From positions 1 through 64,000 of the forward strand of contig WGNG01000001.1 in assembly GCA_016124675.1 (NCBI GenBank): a stretch of DNA of 64,000 nt, given 5' to 3'. The position numbers and the translations under genes were made by a program. Origin of the DNA: Alphaproteobacteria bacterium. GTDB lineage: Bacteria > Pseudomonadota > Alphaproteobacteria > Caulobacterales > Maricaulaceae. Positions 23-38,586 of this stretch are shown one piece after another. Each line of letters opens with the position of its first letter. Positions within the stretch are counted from its first letter, which is position 1. Below the pieces are notes generated by a model. The model did no database searches, was not told where the DNA came from, and saw nothing but the letters and a program-made list of their open reading frames with translations.

Positions 23-575
23 CCTCTCCCCTCCTTGAGGGGAGAGGTAAGGTGAGGGGTGCGCGGCGGTTCGTCCAGACGCGGCGGCGCCAGACACGCC
101 AAAGAGTTCAGAAGCCAGTTTCCCCAATAAGGGGAAATTGGCACACTGCCGCCATGGCCCGCTCCAAACCCATCGCCCATGCCCGCCGCTTGAGGCGCAA
201 TCAGACCCGCTTCGAGCGGCGGCTCTGGTCGCTCCTGCGCCAGCGCCCCGAAGGATTGAAATTCCGCCGCCAGCACCCCGCCTGCGGCTTCATCGCCGAC
301 TTCGCCTGCGTGGAGGCGCGCCTGATCATCGAGCTCGATGGCGCCCAGCACGCCGATCAGCAAGCCGCCGACGCAAGGCGCACTGCGGTTCTGGAAGCAG
401 ACGGCTGGCAGGTCATGCGCTTCTGGAACATCACCCTGGATGAGGCGGCGTTCATGGCGGCTGACCACATTATCGAAACCGCGCTGATGCGCGTGCGGAT
501 GTTTCAACTGGAACGGCAAAGCCCGGACTGACCGCCCCCCCTCACCTTACCTCTCCCCCATGAATGGGGGAGAGG
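23..575. mobile_element. Family A repeat element carrying a DUF559 nuclease gene
   Basis: The DUF559 gene is bracketed by two nearly matching inverted ends. The left end is a perfect hairpin (arms 23-33 and 37-47) followed by TAAGGTGAGGGG. The right end is CCCCTCACCTTA followed by a hairpin (arms 550-561 and 564-575). Reverse-complemented, the right end matches the left over about 37 bases apart from the hairpin tip. The same ends, without the gene, recur at 650-775 and 850-1018. The arrangement resembles a gene-bearing element beside its gene-less derivatives. No target duplication was recognised. Mobility is inferred, not seen. Confidence 0.6.
154..531 (+). CDS. DUF559 (Vsr-like, PD-(D/E)XK-fold) endonuclease-domain protein
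   Basis: This 125-residue protein is essentially one DUF559 domain, a family related to very-short-patch-repair and type II restriction nuclease folds. Visible conserved residues are FRRQ (38-40 region), D49 in the IADF strand, E60 and D62 in IIELDG, H66, and the closing VMRFWN motif. These are the expected metal-binding core of this nuclease superfamily. The in-frame upstream stretch from base 52 is repeat-derived, so the ATG at 154 is preferred; it gives the MARxxxxxARxLRxxxT-type start typical of the family. The gene sits between the hairpin ends of a family A element. A second DUF559 domain lies inside rsmE. Substrate and role are unknown. Confidence 0.8.
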   Translation: MARSKPIAHARRLRRNQTRFERRLWSLLRQRPEGLKFRRQHPACGFIADFACVEARLIIELDGAQHADQQAADARRTAVLEADGWQVMRFWNITLDEAAFMAADHIIETALMRVRMFQLERQSPD

Positions 576-649
576 GGGCTTCTACGCCTCGTTCAATCCG
601 TTGAAGCCAGGCGCTTGCATTTCCGGAACAAACTCAGGCGTCAAAGCCT

Positions 650-775
650 CCTCTCCCCTCTTCAGAGGGGAGAGGTAAGGTGAGGGGTGTGCGCCGATTC
701 GCCCAGACGCGGCGAGCGCAAGGGGGGGCGGAGAGCCCCCCTCACCCTGCCCTCTCCCCATGAATGGGGGAGAGG
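650..775. repeat. Family A repeat, short form without nuclease gene (copy 1)
   Basis: The left hairpin has 12-base arms (650-661 and 664-675) and continues TAAGGTGAGGGG. The right end is CCCCTCACCCTG followed by a hairpin closing at 775. Only about 50 bases separate the ends, where the 23-575 element holds a nuclease gene. The core GCGCCGATTCGCCCAGACGC resembles the sequence just inside the left end of that element (68-90). Confidence 0.75.
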
Positions 776-849
776 GGGCGTGCGGCGCTGCGCTCTTTCG
801 GTTGGGCCAGGCGCTTGCATTTCCGGAACAAACTCAGGCGTCAAAGCCC

Positions 850-1018
850 CCTCTCCCCTCTTCAGAGGGGAGAGGTAAGGTGAGGGGTGTGCGCCGATTC
901 GCCCAGGCGCGGCGGCGCAAGGGGGGCGGAGAGGTCCCCCTCACCCTGCCCTTCGCCCTGTCGATTGATCCCCCGGATCAATCTCTCAAGAGCTCAGCCC
1001 CCATGAATGGGGGAGAGG
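850..1018. repeat. Family A repeat, short form with a nested insertion (copy 2)
   Basis: The left hairpin is identical to copy 1 (850-875). The right hairpin is disrupted: 952-997 replaces three bases of copy 1 with 46 bases. That insert carries a perfect inverted repeat, GATTGATC at 963-970 and GATCAATC at 976-983. The distal half of the right hairpin, ending at 1018, is intact. Confidence 0.7.
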
Positions 1019-1092
1019 GGGCGTGCGGCGCTGCGCTCTTTCGGTTGGGCCAGGCGCTTGCATTTCCGGAACAAACTCAGGCGTCAAAGCCC

Positions 1093-1170
1093 CCTCTCCC
1101 CTCTTGAGAGGGGAGAGGTAAGGTGAGGGGTGCGCCGGTTCATCCAGACGCGGCGGCGCAAGGGGGGCGC
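1093..1170. repeat. Family A repeat, truncated (copy 3)
   Basis: The left hairpin (arms 1093-1104 and 1107-1118), TAAGGTGAGGGG and the inner GACGCGGCGGCGCAAGGGGG segment are present. The right end is missing, and the sequence runs straight into the 3' end of the opposite-strand SRAP gene at 1176. Confidence 0.65.
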
Positions 1171-5797: not shown

Positions 5798-7171
5798 CTA
5801 ATACGCCGCCTCTTCAAATATCGCATCCAGCTTGCCGCCCCAGGCGCCGTGATAGCGCTCCAAAAGGCGTTCGGCGGGGCTGAGTCCGGTGCGGGCGATG
5901 GCGTCGAGATCATCGAGGAAGAGCGCCTCGTTCTCGCCATGGGCGTTGAGGCGGGCGCGCGCCTTCAGGCCTGAGCGGGCGATGGCCAGCACGTCCTTGG
6001 CCACGTCCTGCAGGGTGCGGGTGCGGAACGGGGTTTTCAGCGCAAAGCGGGCCGCGCCGATGCGCAGGCAGGCGCGCTCCTCGCGCGTCCAGTCCTTCAC
6101 ATACTCCCAGGCCGCATCCAGCGCCGCATCGTCATAGAGCAGGCCCACCCAGAAGGCCGGCAGGGCGCACAGATTGCTCCACGGCCCGCCATCGGCGCCG
6201 CGCTGTTCCAGGAAGGTCTTCAGACGCACTTCAGGGAACAGGGTGGAGAGGTGATCTTCCCAGTCGCTCAGGACCGGGATCACGCCCGGGAGCGCGGGGA
6301 GCTTGCCCTGCAGGAAATCGCGGAAGGACTGGCCCGAGGCGTCGATATACCGGCCCTCGCGCTTGACGAAATACATCGGCGCATCCAGCGCCCAGTCCAC
6401 GTACTGCTCGTAGCCGAAGCCTTCCTCGAACGCGAAGGGCAGCATGCCGGTGCGGTTGGGGTCCACATCGGTCCAGACATGGGCGCGGTAGGACAGATAG
6501 CCGTTCGGGCGCCCGTCGGAAAAGGGCGAGTTGGCAAACAGGGCTGTGGCCACCGGCTGCAGCGCCAGCGAGACGCGCATCTTCTTCACCATGTCCGCTT
6601 CGCTGGCGTAATCGAGATTGGTCTGCACCGTGCACGAGCGGAACATCATCTGGTGGCCGAGACCGCCCACCCTGGGCATGTAGTTGCGCATGATCTGGTA
6701 GCGCGCCTTGGGCATCATCGGCGTGTCGGCCAGCGCCCAGACCGGCGAGAAGCCGAGGCCCAGAAAGCCTGCGCCGATCTCGTCGGCGACCTCGCGCACC
6801 TCGCGCAAATGCCCGTTCACCTCGCGGCAGGTCTCGTGCAGCGTCTCCACCGCCGCGCCCGACAGTTCAAACTGCCCGCCCGGCTCCAGCGTGATGGAGC
6901 CTCCATCGCGTTTCAGCGCGACCGTCTTGCCGTCCTCGACGATGGGCTCCCAGCCAAAGCGGGTGAGTCCGTCGAGCATTTTGCGCACGCTGGCGCCCTC
7001 GCCCTCATAGGCCAGCGGCTGGCGGCCCTCCTTGGTGAAGCCGAACTTCTCGTGCTCGGTGCCGATGCGCCAGCGCTCGCGCGGCTTTTCGCCCGAGGCC
7101 GCGTGCGCGATCAGCTGCGCCTTGCTCTCAATGGGAGCGCCTTCGCCGCCGGCGTTATAGGTCCCGCTCAT
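5798..7171 (-). CDS. gshA: Glutamate--cysteine ligase, plant/alphaproteobacterial type
   Basis: This 457-residue enzyme makes gamma-glutamylcysteine from Glu, Cys and ATP, the first step of glutathione synthesis. Length and motifs match the plant-type class shared by alphaproteobacteria: RIGTEHEKFGF near the N terminus, LEPGGQFELSG, the MRNYMPRVGGLGHQMMFRSC region, TVQTNLDYASE and the FANSPFSDGRPNGYLSYR segment. The Met at 7171 is preferred over one nine codons upstream because the family begins close to the KAQLI segment. Glutathione made here could serve the GST-family proteins at 23993 and 35564. Confidence 0.94.
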   Translation of the reverse strand: MSGTYNAGGEGAPIESKAQLIAHAASGEKPRERWRIGTEHEKFGFTKEGRQPLAYEGEGASVRKMLDGLTRFGWEPIVEDGKTVALKRDGGSITLEPGGQFELSGAAVETLHETCREVNGHLREVREVADEIGAGFLGLGFSPVWALADTPMMPKARYQIMRNYMPRVGGLGHQMMFRSCTVQTNLDYASEADMVKKMRVSLALQPVATALFANSPFSDGRPNGYLSYRAHVWTDVDPNRTGMLPFAFEEGFGYEQYVDWALDAPMYFVKREGRYIDASGQSFRDFLQGKLPALPGVIPVLSDWEDHLSTLFPEVRLKTFLEQRGADGGPWSNLCALPAFWVGLLYDDAALDAAWEYVKDWTREERACLRIGAARFALKTPFRTRTLQDVAKDVLAIARSGLKARARLNAHGENEALFLDDLDAIARTGLSPAERLLERYHGAWGGKLDAIFEEAAY

Positions 7172-7237
7172 CGTTTTGCGCCTCCGGCCCGCCCTCAAGT
7201 CGTGGCCGCACAGTTAGGCGGGCGCAGACAATGCGGC

Positions 7238-7261
7238 AAGGGCCGATATCGCCCGGCCCTT
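7238..7261 (-). terminator. Possible weak terminator downstream of rsmE
   Basis: An inverted repeat AAGGGCC (7238-7244) / GGCCCTT (7255-7261) lies between the rsmE stop and the gshA start, both on the minus strand. There is no clear T tract, so it may not terminate efficiently. Confidence 0.3.
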
Positions 7262-7278
7262 CACACAAGCGCGAGCGC

Positions 7279-8661
7279 TCACGCCCAATCACCCAGCGCC
7301 GCCTGCCACAGGGCCAGCGCCGCGGCCGCCGCCGTGTCGGCGCGCAGGATGCGCGGGCCCAGGCTCACCGCCAGAACGCCCGGCAGCGCCCGCAGCCGCT
7401 CGCGCTCCTCCGGCGCAAACCCGCCCTCGGGACCGGTAAGGATGGCCCAGTGTTGAGTCCTTCCGGCTTTGCGACTCTCGCCGTCGTCTGAACCTGGCGG
7501 ATCATCTGGACCGCTGCGCCCCCCACCCCGGCCCTCCCCCGGCGGGGGAGGGAGAGCGGCGTCGGCTGAATTGTACTTTCTGCCAGACTGAGGGCCGCCC
7601 TTCGCCGTCGCCCCGCCAATCGATCCGTCTGCCCCATACCCCTCCAGCGGCGCAGACCCGCTCCCTCCCCTTGAGGGGAGGGTTGGGGTGGGGTGGTGCA
7701 GCGCTGCAGCAATCACTTCCGCTACTCCAATGGCGTTTTCGAACAGCTCGGCGTTCCAGAAGCGCAGGACGCGGTAACCTTGGGCCTCCATCCAGGCGTC
7801 GCGCTCCCGGTCGCGGCGACCGCCATGGCCACCGCCATCGAGCTCGACCACCAGATTACGCGACAGGCAGGCGAAATCCGCCACATACGGCCCAATCGCC
7901 GCCTGGCGCCGGAAATGAGCGCCCGGAACTCTGATGTCTTTCAATAGCGCCCAGAGCTTGGCCTCGGCGGGCGTCGGTTCGGCGCGCAGCCGCCGCGCCA
8001 TAGCCAGCGTGCGGGCATGAGGCTCGGGCCGGCGGGCGCCCACTCTAAAGCCGGTCGAGTCTGGCGCCGCCTCGATGAACTGGCCATCCGCGCTGACCTC
8101 GAACAGCTGTTCATTGCGGATTGCCATCAGCGCCTCCAGCATCGGGGCGCCGCCGGTCTCGTCGCAGAAGATGAGCCGCTGCCCCTGCGGCCAGCCGTCC
8201 AGCAACGCCTCCAGCCGCACCGGTTCGCCGATCTGCGGCACGTCGAGCCGTTCGGTCTGTTCGGCCGCTTCTCGGGCGAGCGCGGACAGGCGGTCGGTGC
8301 GCACGCGCTCGGCATTGGTGCGCCGGGTGAGCACCGGAATGATGGCGCGCGCGCCCAGCTCGGTGGCTTTCTCCACGATAAAGTCGGTGCGCGCCTTCTT
8401 GACCGGCGCAAAATACAAGGTCAAAGGCGGCGGGACGGCCTGTTCGCGCAGGCGCTCGGCGATCTCAAGGCGCGCCTCGCGCTTGCCGGCGGACGCCAGC
8501 ACCGCGCGCCATTCGCCGTCGCGCCCGTTGAACACCCGCACGCTGTCGCCGGGCTGGCGGCGCATCACCGACACCAGATAATGCGCCGGATCGCGCTCCA
8601 GCGTCAGGCTGGCGCCCCCGTTCAGGGGCGCGTCGACGAACAGGCGGGGATCGGTGCTCAT
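7279..8661 (-). CDS. rsmE: 16S rRNA m3U1498 methyltransferase RsmE with an in-frame DUF559 nuclease insertion
   Basis: The 460-residue reading frame is RsmE split by about 225 extra residues. Residues 1-178 are the PUA-like domain and first SPOUT half (FAPVKKARTDFIVEKATELG, then LIFCDETGGAPMLEAL). Residues 404-460 are the SPOUT knot (HWAILTGPEGGFAPEE, SLGPRILRADTAA). Without the insert the protein is 235 residues, the normal length. Residues about 215-321 are a DUF559 domain with D262, E273, D275, H279 and VLRFWN. Residues 322-403 are translated family B hairpin repeat. No stop or frameshift interrupts the frame. Known role of RsmE: methylates N3 of U1498 in 16S rRNA using SAM. Activity of this version is unproven. 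The upstream gene overlaps its start by ATGA. Confidence 0.85.
   Translation of the reverse strand: MSTDPRLFVDAPLNGGASLTLERDPAHYLVSVMRRQPGDSVRVFNGRDGEWRAVLASAGKREARLEIAERLREQAVPPPLTLYFAPVKKARTDFIVEKATELGARAIIPVLTRRTNAERVRTDRLSALAREAAEQTERLDVPQIGEPVRLEALLDGWPQGQRLIFCDETGGAPMLEALMAIRNEQLFEVSADGQFIEAAPDSTGFRVGARRPEPHARTLAMARRLRAEPTPAEAKLWALLKDIRVPGAHFRRQAAIGPYVADFACLSRNLVVELDGGGHGGRRDRERDAWMEAQGYRVLRFWNAELFENAIGVAEVIAAALHHPTPTLPSRGGSGSAPLEGYGADGSIGGATAKGGPQSGRKYNSADAALPPPPGEGRGGGRSGPDDPPGSDDGESRKAGRTQHWAILTGPEGGFAPEERERLRALPGVLAVSLGPRILRADTAAAAALALWQAALGDWA
7453..8127 (-). mobile_element. DUF559 domain plus family B repeat inserted inside rsmE
   Basis: These boundaries mark where recognisable RsmE stops (Leu178) and resumes (His404). 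In coding order the 675-base, 225-codon insert holds about 36 codons of unassigned sequence, a DUF559 nuclease domain, then two GC-rich hairpin segments (at 7661-7696 and 7519-7556) with a roughly 105-base linker. The hairpin segments translate as HPTPTLPSRGG and PPPPGEGRGGG. The insert length is a multiple of three, so the host frame is kept. No intein-type splice motifs are seen. Exact ends are estimated from protein similarity. Confidence 0.7.
7519..7696. repeat. Family B paired-hairpin repeat within rsmE
   Basis: The ends are CCCCCCACCCCGGCCCTCCC (from about 7519) and, inverted, GGGAGGGTTGGGGTGGGG (to about 7696). Each is followed inward by a hairpin of the GGGGAGGG/CCCTCCCC type. The ends match those at 35364-35517 and 37429-37579; the linker is longer and diverged. 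Confidence 0.75.
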
Positions 8662-9152
8662 GGGTTTGCGTCACTGCAGTCGGCCGGGGCCAGATTTCCG
8701 TCCATGATCGCCGGCTCGAGCAGCCCTGCGGTCTGAAGACGCAACTGCGTCTGGGTATAGGAGGCGCCCATTGGCTCGCCCCCGAGCATCCACTCAATCC
8801 TGACCTGGCGTAGCTGGCCAAACACCACAATGCGCTTGTTCAGCAGAATCTCGACCGGATCACCGCCCAGCTGTTCGGTAAGATCCGCACGCACGCTAGG
8901 CATGAGTTCCACATTGAGCGAGCGCCGATCACGGTAGTCAGGCATCGAGTTGAGATAGCCCCGGCCCCCACTCTGCCCCGAGCCGCACACATTCATCTCG
9001 ATGGCCATTGGATGGAGGGGCGCATCCGGTTGGGCGATCGAGCGCGCGACGGCGTCTTCTGCCGCGACGGGCCACCGTTCCCGCTGGGCTTCAGCTGCGG
9101 CGCAGACAGTGATCAGCCACGCTGCGGCGGCAATGATGGCTCTTGCGACCAT
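8658..9152 (-). CDS. Hypothetical exported protein
   Basis: This 164-residue protein is not recognised. A signal peptide is visible at the N terminus (ARAIIAAAAWLITVCAAAEA), so it is probably periplasmic. The mature part is mixed, with a VNVCGSG-like stretch containing one Cys near residue 57 and another near the C terminus, which could pair. The Met at 9152 is chosen because the signal peptide starts there. Its stop overlaps the rsmE start by ATGA, implying coupled translation, but no functional link is known. Confidence 0.6.
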   Translation of the reverse strand: MVARAIIAAAAWLITVCAAAEAQRERWPVAAEDAVARSIAQPDAPLHPMAIEMNVCGSGQSGGRGYLNSMPDYRDRRSLNVELMPSVRADLTEQLGGDPVEILLNKRIVVFGQLRQVRIEWMLGGEPMGASYTQTQLRLQTAGLLEPAIMDGNLAPADCSDANP

Positions 9153-35337: not shown

Positions 35338-35567
35338 TGACCAAGCATCGACTTGCACCGCGTCACCCCACCCCGGCCCTCCCCTCAAGGGGAGGGAGAG
35401 ATGCGGGACGGGCATCTGCGAACTTGAAAACCGACGCTACCGCTGAGGCGTCTCAAGCGTATACGGGCGCCTGCAACAACCCTCCCTCCCCCTCGGGGGA
35501 GGGTCGGGGTGGGGGGCTGCGGCGGTCAATCCATCATCGACGAGAGTCCAGAGGACTAGCCCAATGA
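35337..35567 (+). other. Open frame spanning a family B repeat between glyQ and the GST gene
   Basis: An ATG overlapping the glyQ stop (TGATG) opens a 76-residue frame that runs through the family B repeat as HPTPALPSRGG ... NNPPSPSGEGRGGG and stops in ATGA with the next gene's start. It may be only the open frame that family B repeats carry, or the remnant of a small gene. It is listed as an observation, not as an asserted gene. Confidence 0.25.
35364..35517. repeat. Family B paired-hairpin repeat (intergenic copy)
   Basis: Left end CACCCCACCCCGGCCCTCCC and right end, inverted, CCCCCCACCCCGACCCTCCC form imperfect terminal repeats of about 21 bases. Each includes a 9-base-arm hairpin (35377-35385/35388-35396 and 35484-35492/35495-35503). 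The 154-base unit is the simplest copy of the family seen here. Confidence 0.8.
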
Positions 35568-36174: not shown

Positions 36175-38586
36175 TTGGCCGAGCTGCTCATCGAATTCTT
36201 CTGCGAGGAAATTCCCGCGCGCATGCAGGCGCGCGCCGAGGCTGATCTCGCGCGTCTGGTCTCTGCCGCGCTGAAAGACGCCGGGCTCAGCTGGGACACG
36301 CTGGAGGCGTTCTCCGGTCCGCGCCGGATGGGTCTCGCCATCTCCGGCCTGCCGCTGAAGACGCAGGCCGTGCGCGAGGAGCGTAAAGGTCCGCGCACCG
36401 ACGCGCCGGAAAAAGCCATTGAGGGCTTCCTGCGCGGCGCCGGGCTCGCCAGCATCGACAATTGCGAAGTGCGCGAGGACAAGAAGGGCGCGTTCTATAT
36501 CGCCCTGATCGAGACGCCGGGCCGCGACACCGCCGACGTGCTCAAATCCGCCCTGCCCGAGATCGCGCGCTCCTTCCCCTGGCCCAAATCGATGAAGTTT
36601 GGCGAGGGCGAGAAGGCCCAGCGCTGGGTGCGGCCGCTGCACCGGCTGATCTGCCTGCTCGATGGCCAGATCGTCCCGGCGGAGGTGTTCGGCCTGACCG
36701 CCGCCAACATCACCGAAGGTCACCGCATTCACGGCTCCGGCCCCTTCACCGTGACGGGCTTTGCCGACTATGCCGCGCAATTGAAATCCAACGGCGTCAT
36801 CCTGACCCGCGCCGGGCGCCGCCAGAAAATTCTGGACGATGCGCGCGCGGTGTGCGCCAGGGCCGGGCTCGACCTCATCGAGGATGAGGGCCTGCTGGAG
36901 GAGGTGACGGGGCTTGCCGAGCATCCGGTCGCCGTCATGGGCGATATGGATACCGGCTTCCTGGACCTGCCGCCCGAGGTCATCACCCTGACCATGCGCA
37001 CCCACCAGAAATACTTCGCGGTGCGTGACCCGAAGACCGGCGCGCTGGCGCCCAAATTCGTGACGCTGGCCAACCAGACCGCCCCCGATGGCGGCGCCGC
37101 CATCGCCGCAGGCAATGCCCGCGTGCTCTCGGCCCGCCTGTCGGATGCCCGCCATTTCTGGGATCTCGACCGCGCCAAGGGCCTTGAGGCGATGGCGGCG
37201 GAGCTGTCCAAAGTCACCTTCCACGACAAGCTCGGCACGGTGGCCGACAAGACCGCCCGCGTCGCCGCGCTGGCCCGCGAGCTCGCCCCGTCAGTGGGCG
37301 CCGACCCGGATCTCGCCGAGCTCGCGGCACGCCTCGCCAAGGCCGATCTGGTCAGCCAGATGGTCTATGAGTTTCCCGAGCTGCAGGGGGTTATGGGGCG
37401 GTATCTGGCGCTTCAGGCCGGCGCCGATCACCCCACCCCCGACCTCCCCTCAAGGGGAGGGAGAGATGCGGGGCCCGAGACGCACAAGGGAGAAGCCGCC
37501 GGTTCCGCGGCTTCAATGAGTTCCAAAGGCGCTCACAACAGCCCTCCCTCCCCCTCGGGGGAGGGCCGGGGTGGGGGGCTTGCGAGCCTTTCCGAAGAAG
37601 ACCGCCAGCAAGTCGCTGACGCCATCCGCGATCACTACAAGCCCCAGGGCCCCTCCGACGCCGTCCCCACCGCGCCGGTGAGCGCCGCTGTCGCGCTGGC
37701 CGACAAGCTCGACACGCTGGTGGGCTTCTGGGCGATTGATGAAAAGCCGACCGGGTCGAAAGACCCCTTCGCGCTGCGCCGGGCGGCGCTGGGGGTTATC
37801 AGGGTCCTTCTTTCGAACGAAAGCCGAGTCTCACTCAACAAGTGGATGCTTCGCGCTTCATTCAGAGATGCGGTCAAGGAAGAACCAGCGTTCTTCAACC
37901 CCGAAAACCTCCTCGCCTTCTTCGCCGACCGCCTGAAAGTCCACCTCAAGGAAGAAGGCATCCGGCATGACGTGATCGACGCCGTGTTCGCGCTCGGCGA
38001 TGACGACCTTGTGCGCGTGACGAACAAGTCCCGCGCGCTGCAGGCTTTCCTCGACACCGATGACGGCGCGGCGCTGCTGGCGGGTTATCGCCGGGCGGCG
38101 AATATCCTGTCGGCGGAAGAGAAGAAGGGGTTTGATCTGGGCGTGGCGGTGGCTGAGATGCTGGGCGCCGCCCCCCTCGGTCCTTCGGACCACTCCCCCC
38201 GTAAACGGGGGGAGACAAGCGAGGACGCCTTGTCCTCCCCCGCGCGCGGGGGAGGTGTCCGCGGAGCGGACGGAGGGGGGATCACGCCCGATGAACAGGC
38301 CGCCCTCCTCATCGCCATCGCCAAAACCGCGACCGCTCCTGAGGAGCGCGCCCTGATCGGCGAAATCCAGGCGGCCGAGGCTCTCGCGGGCAAAGCGCTG
38401 GGTGATGAGGACTTCTCCGGCGCCATGTCCGCCCTTGCCCGGTTGCGCGGGCCGGTGGATGCCTTCTTCGAGGCGGTTGTCGTAAACGACAAAGACCCTA
38501 TTGTGCGGCGCAACAGACTGGTGCTTCTGTCGCGGATTCGCGCCGCGGCGGACGCCGTGGCGGATTTTTCCCGGCTGGAAGGCTGA
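36175..38586 (+). CDS. glyS: Glycyl-tRNA synthetase beta subunit with two repeat-derived in-frame insertions
   Basis: This 803-residue tRNA-binding subunit begins with TTG: AELLIEFFCEEIPARMQ is the invariant GlyS start. Family marks continue: RTHQKYFAVRD, then HYKPQGPSDAVPTAPVSAAV and ALADKLDTLVGFWAIDEKPT. About residues 419-468 are translated family B repeat (HPTPDLPSRGG ... NSPPSPSGEGRGGG). About residues 666-702 are translated family C repeat. Minus these, the protein is about 715 residues, the usual size. The first insert falls just before the HYKP segment, the second in the C-terminal anticodon-binding region. The frame stays open throughout. Function is presumably kept, since glyS is essential and no second copy is seen. 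Confidence 0.93.
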   Translation: MAELLIEFFCEEIPARMQARAEADLARLVSAALKDAGLSWDTLEAFSGPRRMGLAISGLPLKTQAVREERKGPRTDAPEKAIEGFLRGAGLASIDNCEVREDKKGAFYIALIETPGRDTADVLKSALPEIARSFPWPKSMKFGEGEKAQRWVRPLHRLICLLDGQIVPAEVFGLTAANITEGHRIHGSGPFTVTGFADYAAQLKSNGVILTRAGRRQKILDDARAVCARAGLDLIEDEGLLEEVTGLAEHPVAVMGDMDTGFLDLPPEVITLTMRTHQKYFAVRDPKTGALAPKFVTLANQTAPDGGAAIAAGNARVLSARLSDARHFWDLDRAKGLEAMAAELSKVTFHDKLGTVADKTARVAALARELAPSVGADPDLAELAARLAKADLVSQMVYEFPELQGVMGRYLALQAGADHPTPDLPSRGGRDAGPETHKGEAAGSAASMSSKGAHNSPPSPSGEGRGGGLASLSEEDRQQVADAIRDHYKPQGPSDAVPTAPVSAAVALADKLDTLVGFWAIDEKPTGSKDPFALRRAALGVIRVLLSNESRVSLNKWMLRASFRDAVKEEPAFFNPENLLAFFADRLKVHLKEEGIRHDVIDAVFALGDDDLVRVTNKSRALQAFLDTDDGAALLAGYRRAANILSAEEKKGFDLGVAVAEMLGAAPLGPSDHSPRKRGETSEDALSSPARGGGVRGADGGGITPDEQAALLIAIAKTATAPEERALIGEIQAAEALAGKALGDEDFSGAMSALARLRGPVDAFFEAVVVNDKDPIVRRNRLVLLSRIRAAADAVADFSRLEG
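37429..37579. repeat. Family B paired-hairpin repeat inside glyS
   Basis: The ends CACCCCACCCCCGACCTCCC and (inverted) CCCCCCACCCCGGCCCTCCC match the intergenic copy at 35364. Both copies also share AGAGATGCGGG just inside the left hairpin and an ACAAC/ACAAC-type stretch before the right one; the middle has diverged. Translated in the glyS frame. Confidence 0.8.
38171..38280. repeat. Family C repeat inside glyS
   Basis: This 110-base unit has inverted ends: CCCCCCTCGGTCC, then GGACCACTCCCCC at the left, and GGGGGAGGTGTCCGCGGAGC with GGACGGAGGGGGG at the right. Inner hairpins CCCCCCGTAAACGGGGGG and CCCCCGCGCGCGGGGG are visible. It is a different sequence family from A and B but has the same plan. 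Translated in the glyS frame as PLGPSDHSPRKRGETSED and what follows. Confidence 0.75.

Follow-up and report, generated by a model that had tools for sequence, protein, structure and literature searches.

A DUF559 nuclease in frame inside rsmE, and the pairing of DUF559 clades with short-palindrome families in Alphaproteobacteria

REPINs, dispersed palindrome pairs with which this locus can be compared, come with RAYTs, which are distinct and single-copy (PMC3116915). Intragenic REPs are known in uvrA and other genes (PMC3733652), and PMC12350094 refers to an EDxHD/Vsr homing endonuclease domain. Two described proteins bear on DUF559 itself. In Alphaproteobacteria, bll5746 is a TrmJ relative (SPOUT, COG0565) with a C-terminal DUF559 (PMC1829167), and Caulobacter VsrA (CCNA_02930) is a DUF559 protein treated as a Vsr-like nuclease of the mismatch-repair type, for which repair of deaminated 5mC has been proposed (PMC12907096). 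In the literature that we searched, with subscription journals mostly outside it, we found no report of a DUF559-palindrome pairing or of REPIN/RAYT in alphaproteobacteria, and none of a nuclease insertion at the rsmE site described here, in agreement with the original prediction.

We analyzed a window of 64,000 nucleotides, by which we mean the whole stretch of DNA, from the genome that we call G000. It contains an rsmE gene with the following parts.

7279..8661, minus strand: rsmE with an in-frame DUF559 insert, one 460-aa ORF (ORF and domain models)
8128..8661, minus strand: RsmE residues 1-178, the PUA domain and N-terminal SPOUT part (domain models, structure model)
8014..8127, minus strand: left linker, residues 179-216, like the spacer of the upstream palindrome pair of genome G009 (by eye)
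7699..8007, minus strand: DUF559 Vsr-like nuclease domain, residues 219-321 (Pfam, alignment, Foldseek)
7661..7695, minus strand: left unit of the family A palindromes, with core CCCTCCCC-TCAA-GGGGAGGG, translated HPTPTLPSRGG
7555..7660, minus strand: spacer separating the two palindrome units, within a near-neutral region (region dN/dS 0.905, G000 versus G013)
7518..7554, minus strand: family A palindrome, right unit, inverted orientation, translated PPPPGEGRGGG
7450..7517, minus strand: right linker
7282..7449, minus strand: RsmE C-terminal part, residues 405-460 (SPOUT knot)

The ORF is single and open, as had been predicted for a nuclease lying in frame in rsmE with neither frameshift nor stop. 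The same fused frame is also open in two separate assemblies, Marinicauda salina WD6-1 (G026) and MAG bin.34 (G009, JANSXV). NCBIfam models for RsmE match residues 3 to 180 and then, in several models, again within residues ~399 to 459. The RsmE equivalog NF008696 scores 320 bits, with 234 needed, split over two stretches in which the PUA and SPOUT parts are complete, and the RsmE part (PRK11713, COG1385) has a fold match in 4j3c (Foldseek). DUF559 (PF04480) matches residues 219 to 321 with 107.2 bits against a curated cut-off of 20.6 (Pfam). The order is therefore RsmE 1-178, the nuclease, two palindromes, and the SPOUT knot from residue 405, where RsmE resumes with the strand preceding GPEGGF. 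The limits first proposed, with RsmE at 1-178 and 404-460, shift slightly, the insert extending from residue ~179 to 183 up to residue 404. Both translated hairpins of the original prediction are present, and in this allele both lie C-terminal to the nuclease. A single RsmE match (E ≤ 0.001) was obtained in the genome.

The nuclease domain is complete. D262, E273, and H279 are the residues first pointed out, and E233, D275, and D284 complete a Vsr-like PD-(D/E)XK set. E233, D262, D275, H279, and D284 are invariant in 43 aligned sequences, and E273 is nearly invariant in the same alignment. The residue order of the embedded DUF559 fits the E-D-x-H-D motif of the EDxHD family. In Foldseek searches the DUF559 part matched an endonuclease-like protein, 3hrl, with a TMt of 0.88, and the I-Bth0305I catalytic domain (3r3p_B) with a TMt, by target length, of 0.74 and an E value of 7.8e-4.

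AlphaFold returned well-folded RsmE and DUF559 parts (mean pLDDT 71.6, pTM 0.47), from an alignment in which only 3 of 43 sequences cover the RsmE part. Residues 184 to 209, 325 to 372, and 374 to 400, with pLDDT below 50, are linkers. The earlier suggestion that the host might deal with the segment post-translationally found no backing; there is no sign of processing, and the model is one of folded parts on low-confidence linkers. Its statement that intein-type junctions are lacking held, no HINT or intein family being among the four Pfam families that match the protein. An intron was likewise considered and set aside, Rfam giving two matches only in 7000 to 9000, both far under gathering scores, as was a defense gene, for which PADLOC gave a weak DpdF match alone (E 0.021).

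No ATG, GTG, or TTG lies at a position common to the G000, G009, and G026 alleles, so an RsmE-DUF559 fusion is the likeliest product of the gene. G009 and G026 do share one ATG, within the first DUF559 helix.

We then compared the rsmE site in relatives. An RsmE match was present in 78 of 81 genomes, and we examined the best 30 loci, our own included. From an FCDE-type motif to GPEGG the distance was 63 to 111 nt in 23 of the 30 genomes, which we call empty, and 720 nt in G000. The other seven sites were filled, with DUF559 in G000, G009, G012, and G026 and with palindromes only in G013, G010, and G028 (by eye in G028, where our script found only an unrelated hairpin). Genome G009 has the fullest form, with a palindrome pair, DUF559, and a second palindrome pair, and carries an extra palindrome nested in its first palindrome unit. 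Palindromes stand on the N-terminal side of the nuclease in G009 and G026, and G000 keeps only spacer-like sequence there. G013 has kept the right-hand palindrome pair, lacks the nuclease, and is still in frame. The length between the two motifs was divisible by 3 in 29 of the 30 loci, the exception being G012, whose frame is offset at the palindrome and unreadable past the hairpin because of Ns inside it. Ns are scattered within the rsmE palindrome region of this genome (L007), which is a single contig.

The original prediction had proposed a search of relatives for the empty site and had named, as the finding that would speak against it, a fused protein fixed in all close relatives without flanking repeats. 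What we found is patchy and repeat flanked, with DUF559 in 4 of the 30 genomes and an empty site in 23. On an RsmE tree of 28 of the 30 loci, G011, with an empty site, is the sister of G000 (support 0.896), and the site is also empty in two other close relatives, G005 and G008. Deep support on this tree, which bears on the choice between one ancient insertion followed by losses and repeated transfer, is weak. DUF559 of G000 is 69% identical to that of G009 and 68% to that of G026, values near those of the N part of RsmE (61% and 72%), which favors a long residence of the insert in rsmE. No target-site duplication was definable among the alleles compared, because the empty alleles differ in length and sequence. 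The earlier description of a mobile segment draws support from the repeats and from presence and absence, from which we infer mobility; the genomes compared showed neither a transposition event nor an empty site within one species.

Estimates of selection indicate that nuclease and host are under similar purifying selection. Between G000 and G012, dN/dS was 0.127 for DUF559, an indicative value from one genome pair with 7 nonsynonymous and 17 synonymous changes whose second member has a frame unreadable at the hairpin. In the same comparison dN/dS was 0.119 and 0.108 for the N and C parts of RsmE and 0.336 for the left linker. The palindrome region, compared in one pair, G000 and G013, was near neutral (0.905). 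Fisher tests on rounded counts gave p values of 2e-6 for DUF559 and 0.85 for the palindrome region. The low RsmE values, from two insert-bearing genomes, agree with the earlier proposal that the host protein tolerates the insert. They also bear on the possibility of an assembly or annotation artifact, or of a nonfunctional insertion in a decaying rsmE, which we regard as very improbable. Hairpins are difficult to assemble, and G012 has its Ns and frame offset at the palindrome. An artifact is nevertheless already contradicted by the same architecture lying open in separate assemblies and by the presence of a single rsmE match per genome in all four that are DUF559 filled, and a dN/dS of ~0.12 in both RsmE and DUF559 argues against a dead insertion.

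The four rsmE-embedded nucleases were monophyletic in a tree of 115 DUF559 domains (local support 0.998). In a screen of 398 genomes of the order, with up to 12 candidates scored per genome, they scored 208 to 213 bits and the next match 124, and no close relative of the embedded nuclease was found outside rsmE. Family A of this genus has its sole known nuclease copy in frame inside rsmE, and because it was not found elsewhere, this nuclease does not look self-mobile. The idea that DUF559 is commonly fused in frame to other host genes was rejected. We inspected by eye the open frames at DUF559 matches, taking in as many as 60 residues N-terminal and 80 C-terminal to the domain; those outside rsmE resembled spurious frames, rich in GC, that precede a small independent ORF. 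Five IMG/VR viral contigs carry DUF559 relatives (L309 to L313), and no RsmE was found in the viral contigs.

These properties could also describe a domesticated RsmE-DUF559 protein of two activities, with a selected joint role such as a ribosome- or stress-tied nuclease and with mobility only in its history. The purifying selection on both parts, the occurrence of the embedded lineage in rsmE only, the lack of a start codon position common to the three alleles, and the fusion of DUF559 to another SPOUT methylase (PMC1829167) are in its favor. Against it, the domain is absent from the close relatives G011, G005, and G008, palindromes occur alone in G013, and the spacer is near neutral. We consider domestication distinctly improbable.

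The palindromes of the insert are no chance occurrence. The pattern CCCTCCCC-N2-8-GGGGAGGG has 48 sites in the G000 genome and its reversed control 1; CTCCCC-N2-8-GGGGAG has 108 and its reversed control 4. Four families recur, as defined only after inspection of hairpins adjoining DUF559: A with loop TCAA, B with loop ATCAA or GTCAA, C with CCTCCCCCGYNNRCGGGGGAGG, and D with TCTCCCCTC...GAGGGGAGA. The four DUF559 genes of the genome adjoin one family each: A at rsmE, B at C2:73363, C at C23:119226, and D in the window. Two further features of the window belong here.

154..531, plus strand: DUF559 as a gene of its own, surrounded by family D palindromes (25-45, 652-673, 852-873, 1095-1116)
35364..35517, no strand: family A palindrome pair, intergenic

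In G020 and G036 several similar DUF559 copies adjoin one family. Family D units lie near both ends of contig C20 (window 556 to 1135; G000:C20:180486 and 180688), which suggests that the assembly breaks at these repeats. A GATCAATCC-GGATTGATC palindrome is nested in or among units of other families in L025 (rsmE of G009), at window ~960 to 990, and in L063, and is perhaps a repeat that inserts into repeats. In four loci the right unit of the A pair is swapped, in frame, for a GGTCCGGGGGACC-type hairpin variant: L181 (glyS of G005), L012 (rsmE of G010), L174 (pdhB), and L011 (rsmE of G026).

Most DUF559 genes, in the order and in a mainly alphaproteobacterial sample, have palindromes close by. 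Counting stems of at least 9 as hairpins around 78 DUF559 loci of the order, we found that the 250 bp upstream held one in 47 of 77 cases and the 250 bp downstream in 45 of 76, compared with 90 of 2,324 bins at 1 kb or more; 59 of the 78 loci had at least one hairpin inside 500 bp. A wider sample of 78 loci from named records, 62 being alphaproteobacterial by title, gave 51 of 74 upstream and 54 of 77 downstream within 250 bp against 97 of 1,647 far bins, and 10 of its 78 loci had no hairpin inside 250 bp. Overall, ~60 to 70% of DUF559 sides have a palindrome within 250 bp against a background of 4 to 6%. At the edges of rsmE genes, used as a control with approximate starts, hairpins numbered 1 of 30 and 0 of 30. 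The two flanks of a locus had at least 16 nt in common in 93 of 180 loci but in only 1.3% of 600 crossed pairs; the set includes two overlapping G020 loci and a few duplicate records (for example, L253 with L060 and L259 with L064).

The palindrome family is more closely tied to the nuclease clade than to the genome, a wider pairing that the original prediction had missed. We scored the sharing of 14-mers, in hairpin segments only, by nuclease protein identity. For pairs from different genera, sharing was seen in 73 of 3,758 at below 45% identity, 82 of 1,393 at 45 to 55%, 27 of 101 at 55 to 65%, and 3 of 5 above 65%. The corresponding counts were 3 of 121, 6 of 118, 15 of 35, and 23 of 31 within a genus and 2 of 45, 2 of 41, 1 of 10, and 8 of 12 within a genome. 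Sharing of whole flanks likewise climbs with nuclease identity. On the nuclease tree the family label changes 5 times, compared with a mean of 19.2 and a minimum of 14 in 1,000 shuffles, a count that rests on the 37 of 115 loci carrying a label. Across 49 genomes, a family had more nonlocal copies in those possessing a DUF559 with that family at its flanks (p 0.0014 for A, 0.00046 for B, 0.00029 for C, and 1e-6 for D); the label rule missed G009, which has another loop, and G012, with its Ns, as family A carriers, a bias against the association. In 81 genomes the number of DUF559 genes correlated with that of general palindromes (rho 0.56, p 4e-8) and less with the control pattern (rho 0.18, p 0.11). 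The count, sharing, label, and correlation statistics are all uncorrected for relatedness. The correspondence has exceptions. Six of 25 genomes without DUF559 have at least 10 general palindromes (G002 has 119, with no DUF559 found), and 19 of 56 with DUF559 have fewer than 10. Family A copies occur without a detected family A nuclease in G005 (12), G010 (12), and G013 (13), and three genomes in which a DUF559 is flanked by family B or D (G015, G006, G007) have zero copies elsewhere.

Such a pattern might arise if the palindromes were spread by a RAYT, an IS200-like enzyme, or replication slippage while Vsr-like DUF559 repair or defense genes hitch-hiked among them by homologous recombination. 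The Vsr-like nuclease action of the DUF559 protein VsrA (PMC12907096), the 6 palindrome-rich genomes among the 25 that have no DUF559, and the repeats up- and downstream of DUF559, which would permit recombination, are all compatible with this scenario. Yet if DUF559 genes hitch-hiked on local repeats, sharing should follow the genome, and the observed rise is with nuclease identity; the four DUF559 genes of one genome adjoin four different families; and the A units inspected lack the GTAG end. We judge hitch-hiking unlikely, if less so than domestication. A further result counts against the pairing of nuclease with palindrome family that we prefer, namely, the single sharing pair of 10 at 55 to 65% nuclease identity within a genome.

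Palindromes also lie in frame in other genes. Two such inserts occur in glyS (36175-38586) of the window.

37429..37579, plus strand: family A palindrome pair, in frame in glyS
38171..38280, plus strand: family C palindrome insert, the second in frame in glyS

For the first of these sites, 19 loci were compared, our own included, one of which (G002) runs off its contig. Of the 18 that span the site, 8 have 43 to 84 aa between the flanking motifs and 10 have 11 to 15 aa. Hairpins, not all of one family, are present in 6 of the 8 long loci and in G002. Within glyS, both in the window and in L180 to L198, the stretch between "ALGVIR" and "LLAFFADRLK" varies in length and sequence in most of the species compared and by eye does not look palindromic. 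Family A palindromes are in frame in uvrA (L176) and in the genes for pyruvate dehydrogenase E1 beta (pdhB) and E2 (L174; NCBIfam names). These three come from one genome, in a reading frame unlike that of rsmE and glyS. Of 9 family A sites examined, at least 5 (rsmE, glyS, uvrA, pdhB, and E2) are intragenic, compared with 0 of 19 family B sites; the intragenic filter missed rsmE, which was added by hand.

The explanation that we favor, and think probable, is that DUF559 nucleases are dedicated partners of palindrome families and that the family A nuclease, from a tolerant loop of RsmE, spreads palindrome pairs. In Alphaproteobacteria one Vsr-like DUF559 lineage would serve each short-palindrome family, as RAYT does for REPINs. 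An element made of palindromes, the nuclease, and a palindrome pair would have entered the RsmE loop that precedes the SPOUT knot strand, and the nuclease would be translated within RsmE on flexible linkers, unspliced, and be retained by selection. It probably nicks or cuts DNA at the palindromes, so that short pairs spread; the substrate may be hairpins in single-stranded DNA at replication forks, from which pairs would be copied to new sites. Intragenic copies would survive only if in frame in flexible linkers. About the stronger form of the proposal we are evenly divided: that DUF559 is a second, RAYT-independent class of palindrome mobilizer, in which every lineage across Alphaproteobacteria is specific for one REPIN-like family and copies it within the genome by hairpin cutting, and whose family A enzyme is sheltered unspliced in the RsmE of Oceanicaulis and Marinicauda.

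If the proposal is right, the C-rich palindromes of many such genomes would have an enzyme assigned to them, the DUF559 "protein of unknown function" nucleases would have a genomic role, and a nuclease with no relationship to transposases would be shown able to serve as the center of a REPIN-like system. In the rsmE allele, nature provides a test of how far foreign sequence can split a conserved knotted enzyme, and the glyS inserts show an aminoacyl-tRNA synthetase gene accepting different palindrome families at one place, repeatedly.

Several described systems resemble this one in part. The VsrA residues E73, D102, D115, H119, and D124 fit E233, D262, D275, H279, and D284 by order, unaligned; VsrA is, however, a stand-alone gene, and the string "palindrom" is absent from the main text of its report (PMC12907096). 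In bll5746, DUF559 is again joined to a SPOUT methyltransferase in Alphaproteobacteria, but as a C-terminal tail on a COG0565 protein, an arrangement that the rsmE allele does not share, its DUF559 lying inside COG1385/RsmE; repeats go unmentioned in the part of that source consulted (PMC1829167). With the EDxHD/Vsr homing endonuclease I-Bth0305I (3r3p) the locus has in common the catalytic fold and a nuclease in frame in a conserved gene. Unlike such homing endonucleases, it has no intein, no intron family above cut-off, and palindromic borders.

Housekeeping genes, uvrA among them, also contain Rickettsia palindromic elements and GTAG/CGTC REPs in frame, often as dimers and possibly in linkers (PMC3733652). 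As with the Rickettsia elements, the palindromes here are in frame within the ORF of a protein that, judged by its conservation, is functional. Those elements differ in encoding 20 to 30 aa, with no nuclease inside mentioned in the part of the source consulted (PMC3733652), and in their end tags, the family A units being without the CGTC end (by eye).

Another parallel is REPIN/RAYT. Both systems have inverted pairs of short palindromes with a variable spacer, dispersed in many copies, and both have several families per genome (PMC3116915). In the window genome a distinct gene lies beside each family, much as each RAYT flavor has its own. The family A units, however, are by eye without the GTAG end of that REPIN class, and their location is not extragenic, as at least 5 of the 9 sites examined show. 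DUF559 is present in several similar copies in some genomes, whereas RAYTs are single-copy (PMC3116915). The proposed partner gene adjoining the palindromes, DUF559 in the four cases found in the window genome, encodes a Vsr-like PD-(D/E)XK nuclease instead of a tyrosine transposase (PMC3116915), and one such gene itself lies within rsmE.
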